A DNA stretch of 53,021 nucleotides, from assembly GCA_026225295.1 (NCBI GenBank), contig JAMFSN010000335.1:1-53021 (forward strand), in the 5' to 3' direction. The notes beneath the pieces are model-generated. The model had not been told where the DNA came from and did not search any database. It saw only the letters and a program-made list of their open reading frames with translations. Source of the stretch: Frankia alni. GTDB lineage: Bacteria > Actinomycetota > Actinomycetes > Frankiales > Frankiaceae. Of this stretch, positions 32,612 to 32,792 are shown in pieces (position 1 is the first letter of the stretch; every line of letters starts with the position of its first letter). A program made the translations under genes and the position numbers.

Positions 32612-32670
32612 CGGCCGGTCACCTGCTCCCATCCCGCGGCGCGGTTGACGATCGGGCGCTGGTGCCGGTC

Positions 32671-32765
32671 CGGAAGATCAGGCGAGGAAGGCGGAGCACC
32701 TTTGGGTCGGACAAAGAGTACGGAAGCTGTCCGGCCGGCCACGGCCGACCCTGGCCGGGCCGGGT
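32671..32765 (+). pseudogene. Decayed 5' end of a thaumatin-like protein gene
   Basis: Positions 32671-32730 align without gaps to 34924-34983, the leader and first codons of the intact thaumatin-like gene (about 42 of 60 identical, ten of ten across acaaagagta). In the aligned phase it reads VGQRVRKLSGRP against AGQRVRKPHGRS, but the start codon has become TGG and the similarity fades after about 25 codons, where the copy-B sigma gene ends. It marks a former duplicate of the thaumatin gene. Confidence 0.7.
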
Positions 32766-32792
32766 CGGCGGTGCGGCCGCCGTCCGGTCGCG

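Follow-up and report, generated by a model that had tools for sequence, protein, structure and literature searches.

A predicted membrane-tethered sigma factor–glucanase and a sister copy lacking its promoter type in Frankia alni: a probable partial tandem duplication beside a conserved twin promoter

Introduction

The membrane-fused sigma factors of groups ECF52 and ECF53, such as SCO4117 (an ECF52), combine in a single protein a sigma part, a zinc-finger-like anti-sigma segment, one transmembrane (TM) helix, a proline-rich stretch and an outer carbohydrate-active domain. Published work expects the ECF48, ECF52 and ECF53 sigma factors to be activated by proteolysis (PMC8999054), and the glycosyl hydrolase domains noted in some members of ECF52/53 have been predicted computationally and lack experimental validation (PMC10766802). 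Stand-alone enzymes of the kind that is relevant here are the GH128 endo-beta-1,3-glucanases, for which a structure (PDB 6uaq) and mutants are available.

Here, we describe a locus of Frankia alni in which two adjacent genes, copy A and copy B, encode proteins with the same sequence of parts, the likeness to ECF52/53 being one of architecture. The locus lies in a stretch of 53,021 nt (the window), which is one contig of a 5.78-Mb genome estimated to be 97.6% complete. An earlier note on this DNA had drawn attention to the 32612-32792 interval between the two genes, regarding it as the trace of a duplicated module, and we have followed this interval, its neighbours and their relatives in other actinomycetes.

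Organization of the locus

Copies A and B are on the same strand, with the start of A about 180 nt past the end of B, and the thaumatin gene is divergent and faces B (Table 1). The coding starts were assigned to ATG 32611 for A and ATG 34730 for B, because 61 of 74 relatives have ATG at the codon that corresponds to B residue 5; copy A has an additional in-frame ATG at 32632. Given these two starts, the first ~20 nt of the interval (from 32612) are predicted 5' leader of A. A start of B at GTG 34742 and a frameshift in A were both considered and ruled out, since the conserved starts are ATG 34730 and ATG 32611 and the 1-nt difference falls in the leader.

Table 1. Coordinates, strands and supporting evidence of the features of the locus
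Coordinates	Strand	Feature	Evidence
30584..32611	-	Copy A: ECF sigma - HxxxCxxC segment - TM - GH128 fusion, 675 aa	Pfam PF04542 and PF11790; start set by conservation in relatives; both catalytic Glu present
32612..32670	-	Predicted 5' leader of copy A, homologous to the B leader 34731-34797	Global alignment; noncoding part 0/1000 shuffles
32670..32673	.	Deletion junction: ~127 bp gone (= 34798-34924, both promoters)	Offset change between two aligned blocks
32673..32737	+	Thaumatin 5' remnant: ribosome-binding region and codons 2-12	46/65 identity to 34926-34990, 0/2000 shuffles
32738..32792	.	Stretch that should contain the tandem-duplication junction	9/23 at thaumatin offset (816/2000); 28/54 at A 3'-flank offset (37/2000)
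32793..34730	-	Copy B: ECF sigma - HxxxCxxC segment - TM - GH128 fusion, 645 aa	Pfam; above NCBI ECF-sigma cut-off
34731..34797	-	5' leader of copy B	Alignment with A leader
34799..34831	-	Predicted ECF-type promoter facing copy B (TTTGTGTCATTC-N15-GTCTCC)	Motif conserved in relatives; one of only two exact genome matches
34855..34887	+	Predicted ECF-type promoter facing thaumatin (TTTGTGTTATTC-N15-GTCTCC)	Motif conserved in relatives; one of only two exact genome matches
34783..34903	.	Inverted repeat made by the two facing promoters	Arms 34783-34831 / 34855-34903, 49 nt each, 80% complementary, 23-nt spacer
34956..36029	+	Intact thaumatin-family gene, 357 aa, N-terminal hydrophobic segment	Pfam PF00314, E 2.8e-64; hydropathy

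A search of the genome returned no further copies of the sigma-glucanase fusion or of the inverted repeat, and among the 34 other family genomes only 2 have a close homologue of the B sigma part, with one match each. Beyond the thaumatin gene, at 36019-38685, translations alone point to an ABC-2-type membrane protein, an ABC ATPase and a divergent TetR-like regulator. The linker-coding part of A contains a second, near-perfect inverted repeat (31391-31462; no loop, 36-nt arms, 78% complementary), the centre of which (gggcccccttacgccc/gggcgtaagggggccc) is perfectly complementary.

A conserved twin promoter

The inverted repeat upstream of B, a palindrome for the earlier note, is by its predicted layout a pair of facing copies of one conserved promoter type, of the kind read by ECF sigma factors. 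Comparison with the upstream regions of sigma-glucanase genes at 73 other loci gave a conserved two-part element, TTTctGTTgTCC-N14/15-GTCTCC, and of 76 sigma genes (A and B included) 54 have this strict pattern in their upstream region on the sense strand and 25 have it on the facing strand. With a weight matrix, the element is recognized in the upstream regions of 67 of the 74 sigma-glucanase genes from other actinomycetes, a count that is not independent, the matrix having been trained on these same loci. The pattern is strongly concentrated, with 79 strict matches in 70 kb of upstream strand-bases and 36 in the remaining ~2.46 Mb, several of these 36 being themselves upstream of thaumatin or glucanase genes; in other actinomycetes the element often also faces a gene of one of these two types. 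In the genome of the window, the exact pattern has two matches, which are the two arms, and the reversed control has none. The co-occurrence of element and gene suggests that the sigma part of B reads its own promoter. Since other genera have a divergent pair at much the same distance, we take it as ancestral and lost at A, and its insertion in B was ruled out on the same ground.

The relatives display several variations of this arrangement. In several Streptomyces (loci L007, L028, L030, L032, L035 and L054) a second thaumatin gene, preceded by a promoter copy of its own, is located 3' of the sigma-glucanase gene (positions ~9.9-11.1 kb of the locus; 4.3-5.4 kb in L028). In Actinospica (L020:1353-4190) a twin promoter is common to two divergent thaumatin genes, and the sigma-glucanase gene directly follows one of them in an operon-like order. 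In some Streptosporangiaceae (L008, L012, L017 and L048) a stand-alone GH128 gene takes the place of thaumatin in facing the sigma-glucanase gene, or sits 3' of it, and in L012 this gene also has the promoter motif upstream. Finally, in Planotetraspora thailandica (L004:6049-6192) a lone C-terminal thaumatin fragment, with 85% identity over 48 residues to the thaumatin of the window, lies beyond an intact thaumatin gene and constitutes another thaumatin remnant in a similar neighbourhood.

The interval between B and A

Two aligned blocks make up most of the interval. The upstream flank of A matches the 5' side of B up to gccggtc, as the earlier note had described: the first block aligns end to end with small gaps only, the alignment of the two leaders runs through gtgccggtc, and its noncoding part (32633-32672) scores better than all of 1000 dinucleotide shuffles. 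The jump across the palindrome was found as well, the next aligned base, 32673, corresponding to 34926 (offset 2253); the DNA missing at A (roughly 34798-34924) comprises nearly all of the inverted repeat. The second block is gapless, and its 46 identities in 65 positions compare with a shuffle mean of 20. It is, as had been stated, devoid of a start codon, the thaumatin GTG 34956 being aligned to TGG 32703-32705, after which remnant and thaumatin read VGQRVRKLSGR and AGQRVRKPHGR, respectively. The thaumatin-like part had been put at about 25 codons; it is really of ~10-11, because from 32738 the identity falls to chance level. The earlier note had allowed that the similarity might be confined to a 14-nt core, and it is not: the flank upstream of the core (32673-32709) has 23 of 37 identities, with none of 2000 shuffles reaching this value, while the short piece downstream of it (32724-32737) has 10 of 14 only (98 of 2000 shuffles). 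The divergence of the remnant, 29%, is near the pS of 0.36 between A and B, as would be expected if the remnant and the two copies date to one duplication.

In free alignments, 32738-32792 gave no convincing match to the N-terminal part, the middle or the 3' end of thaumatin. A weak match was obtained with the 3' flank of A (30530-30583), and the duplication junction should therefore fall somewhere within this stretch.

How much was duplicated

These observations would be accounted for by a single tandem duplication of ~2.2 kb, extending from just past the 3' end of the sigma-glucanase gene, across the two divergent promoters, and ending at around codon 11-12 in thaumatin. Its product would have been copy A, a promoter pair and a thaumatin start, beside copy B, a promoter pair and the whole thaumatin; later, a deletion of ~127 bp would have taken the promoter pair of A, which was prone to such loss because it forms a long inverted repeat, and the thaumatin stub would have decayed. 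Two features of the locus support a partial tandem duplication: the tree built from 71 proteins joins A and B as sisters (support 100/99) private to this lineage, their nearest relative being from Rugosimonospora africana, and the neighbouring gene is truncated at about codon 11-12.

The earlier note had proposed that the whole unit, with all of thaumatin, was duplicated and then partly lost. Its duplication, the loss of the promoter arms at A and the start-less remnant stand; the copying and loss of a whole thaumatin gene does not follow from the sequence, since the remnant stops at about codon 11-12 and 32738-32792 holds no convincing body or 3' end of that gene. Nor is a deletion of thaumatin needed, because a partial duplication with one breakpoint just inside the gene gives the observed order directly. 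Duplication of the entire module, followed by deletions of most of one thaumatin and of the promoter pair, would nevertheless be in keeping with the second thaumatin genes of some Streptomyces loci, which lie 3' of the sigma-glucanase gene behind promoters of the same type, and with the fragment in P. thailandica, the two together implying that thaumatin genes are gained and lost in such loci. However, it requires the extra loss of ~1 kb, and the second thaumatins of Streptomyces fall on a branch of their own, whereas A and B are private to this lineage. The undeleted double module that had been expected in relatives was not encountered either, no tandem sigma-glucanase pair being present in 80 loci, although an erased copy would leave none. 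We consider this course of events unlikely, if still worth keeping in mind, and prefer the partial duplication.

Asymmetric evolution of the two copies

The two copies have evolved at different rates. In the protein tree the branch of A measures 0.55 and that of B 0.12, A being ~4.5 times faster, and branches computed separately for each domain (FastTree) are 0.56 and 0.28 for the sigma part and 0.23 and 0.08 for the glycosyl hydrolase (GH) part of A and B, respectively. Between the copies, dN/dS is 0.57 in the sigma part and 0.35 in the hydrolase part; the former value, being below 1, indicates that some constraint still acts on the sigma part, at least when both branches are taken together. 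Consensus residues lost in A amount to 18 of 93 conserved columns of sigma factor and zinc finger, against 6 of 91 in the hydrolase, a modest excess (p=0.015). They include H178 and R182 of region 4 and the DDV of DDVVQET, the region-2.2 motif by which sigma factors contact core RNA polymerase. The NCBI ECF-sigma model TIGR02937 (cut-off 42.9) scores B above its threshold (52.1 bits) and A below it (25.6 bits), while PF04542 is matched in both. Frame-preserving indels were dropped as a sign of selection, gap placement being ambiguous in the nucleotide alignment.

The remaining parts are retained on both sides. The HxxxCxxC motif, predicted to bind zinc, reads HIRDCRAC in B and HVQDCGWC in A, and is followed in both by a hydrophobic 19-mer, the predicted TM helix; the outer domain is recognized by PF11790 in both copies, and the two GH128 catalytic glutamates (in FNEPD and WLTEYAL), mutated in sibling entries of PDB 6uaq, are present in A as in B. 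This bears on the possibility that A has no function and is just a duplicate in decay, as the absence of a promoter of its own, the four-fold longer branch and the lost sigma residues could indicate. Against it are a frame that is open, without a stop, over 675 aa, the low dN/dS of the hydrolase part, and the presence of both catalytic glutamates and of the TM helix, and we regard functional decay of the entire protein as rather improbable. The best reading of these data is that A may be drifting from a sensor-regulator to a membrane glucanase dependent on B.

Transcription of copy A

The element of the twin promoter is absent upstream of A, where the best matrix score is 0.6, compared with a minimum of 21 among the training sites. 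A simple scan of the gap between A and B and of 32500-32900 found neither a sigma70-type promoter nor a T-run terminator, and RNA structure in the gap is nothing special (z -1.26). Given these three negative results (element, promoter, terminator), read-through from the promoter of B is the simplest source of a transcript for A; dependence of A on the B transcript is thus plausible, and the two genes are most likely co-transcribed. Read-through would be superfluous if the remnant had evolved a weak new promoter facing A. Indeed, its best-kept 14-15 nt (within 32706-32722) read on the minus strand as TACTCTTTGTCCG, which is weakly -35-like, and a weak -10-like CGCCTTCC is found at the right distance; yet 14 of 500 shuffles equal the resulting score, which is far under that of every training site, and the invariant GTCTCC is absent, so that a promoter of this kind is very unlikely.

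That the similarities underlying this whole reconstruction arose by chance in GC-rich sequence (the window has a GC content of 73%, and the part past 32738 is at chance level) is practically negligible, and was ruled out by the shuffle tests, since both main blocks outscore every shuffle and are collinear, in the expected order.

Discussion

Taken together, we think it probable, with a fair margin of doubt, that a partial tandem duplication produced A and B, that A subsequently lost its promoter and that it is now drifting toward a B-dependent membrane glucanase. In the circuit that we propose, B would be a membrane-tethered ECF sigma factor with an outer GH128 beta-1,3-glucanase domain, held by its anti-sigma-like segment. 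When beta-1,3-glucan, as in the fungal wall, meets the outer domain, proteolysis would presumably free the sigma part, which would then transcribe from the twin promoters its own gene (with A by read-through) and thaumatin. The enzyme of the fusion probably cuts fungal cell walls, and glucan is suggested as the signal by the enzyme family and by the thaumatin gene that faces B. With its sigma part decaying and its glucanase part kept, A would probably be an extra membrane glucanase induced by B. More specifically, and as a tentative proposal that we hold at less than even confidence, A could be a sigma-disabled but, by prediction, still catalytic paralogue in the autoregulated operon of its sister, serving as an inducible membrane glucanase, as a co-receptor or as a decoy with an anti-sigma-like segment, and so tuning the response of B to fungal beta-1,3-glucan. 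If true, one sensor would have been duplicated into a sensor-regulator (B) and a sensor-effector (A).

The process of duplication is ordinary, and the remnant itself is ordinary duplication debris; its value is that it orders the events and shows how A may have become dependent on B. The pair is in this respect a natural experiment, in which B retains promoter and sigma residues, and A, its promoter gone, is shedding sigma residues but still has the enzyme. The regulatory module is more interesting than the duplication: a glucanase-tipped sigma factor, whose type of promoter also precedes thaumatin or glucanase genes, is conserved across several actinomycete families, and in the literature searched no description of a conserved glucanase-sigma/thaumatin regulon was found. 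Whether fungal wall glucan is what these sigma factors sense thereby becomes directly testable, with a defined promoter that can be used as a reporter.

The comparison with known systems delimits what is particular here. Like ordinary tandem duplications in which a promoter was lost and the copies diverged unequally, the locus has a neighbouring gene cut short at the junction and sister copies of which one is accelerated; here, however, the lost promoter is part of a probably self-activated pair, and its loss would tie A to the sigma activity of B. The outer domains match GH128 endo-beta-1,3-glucanases (PDB 6uaq and its mutants) over the whole domain length, with E 2e-87 for B and 4e-85 for A and with both mutated glutamates conserved, but they are tethered to a sigma factor and not stand-alone. 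Compared with ECF52 and ECF53, lastly, the outer domain is a GH128 enzyme with its catalytic residues kept, the genes adjoin thaumatin or glucanase genes with the same promoter, and one copy, A, has lost the promoter together with features of the sigma factor.
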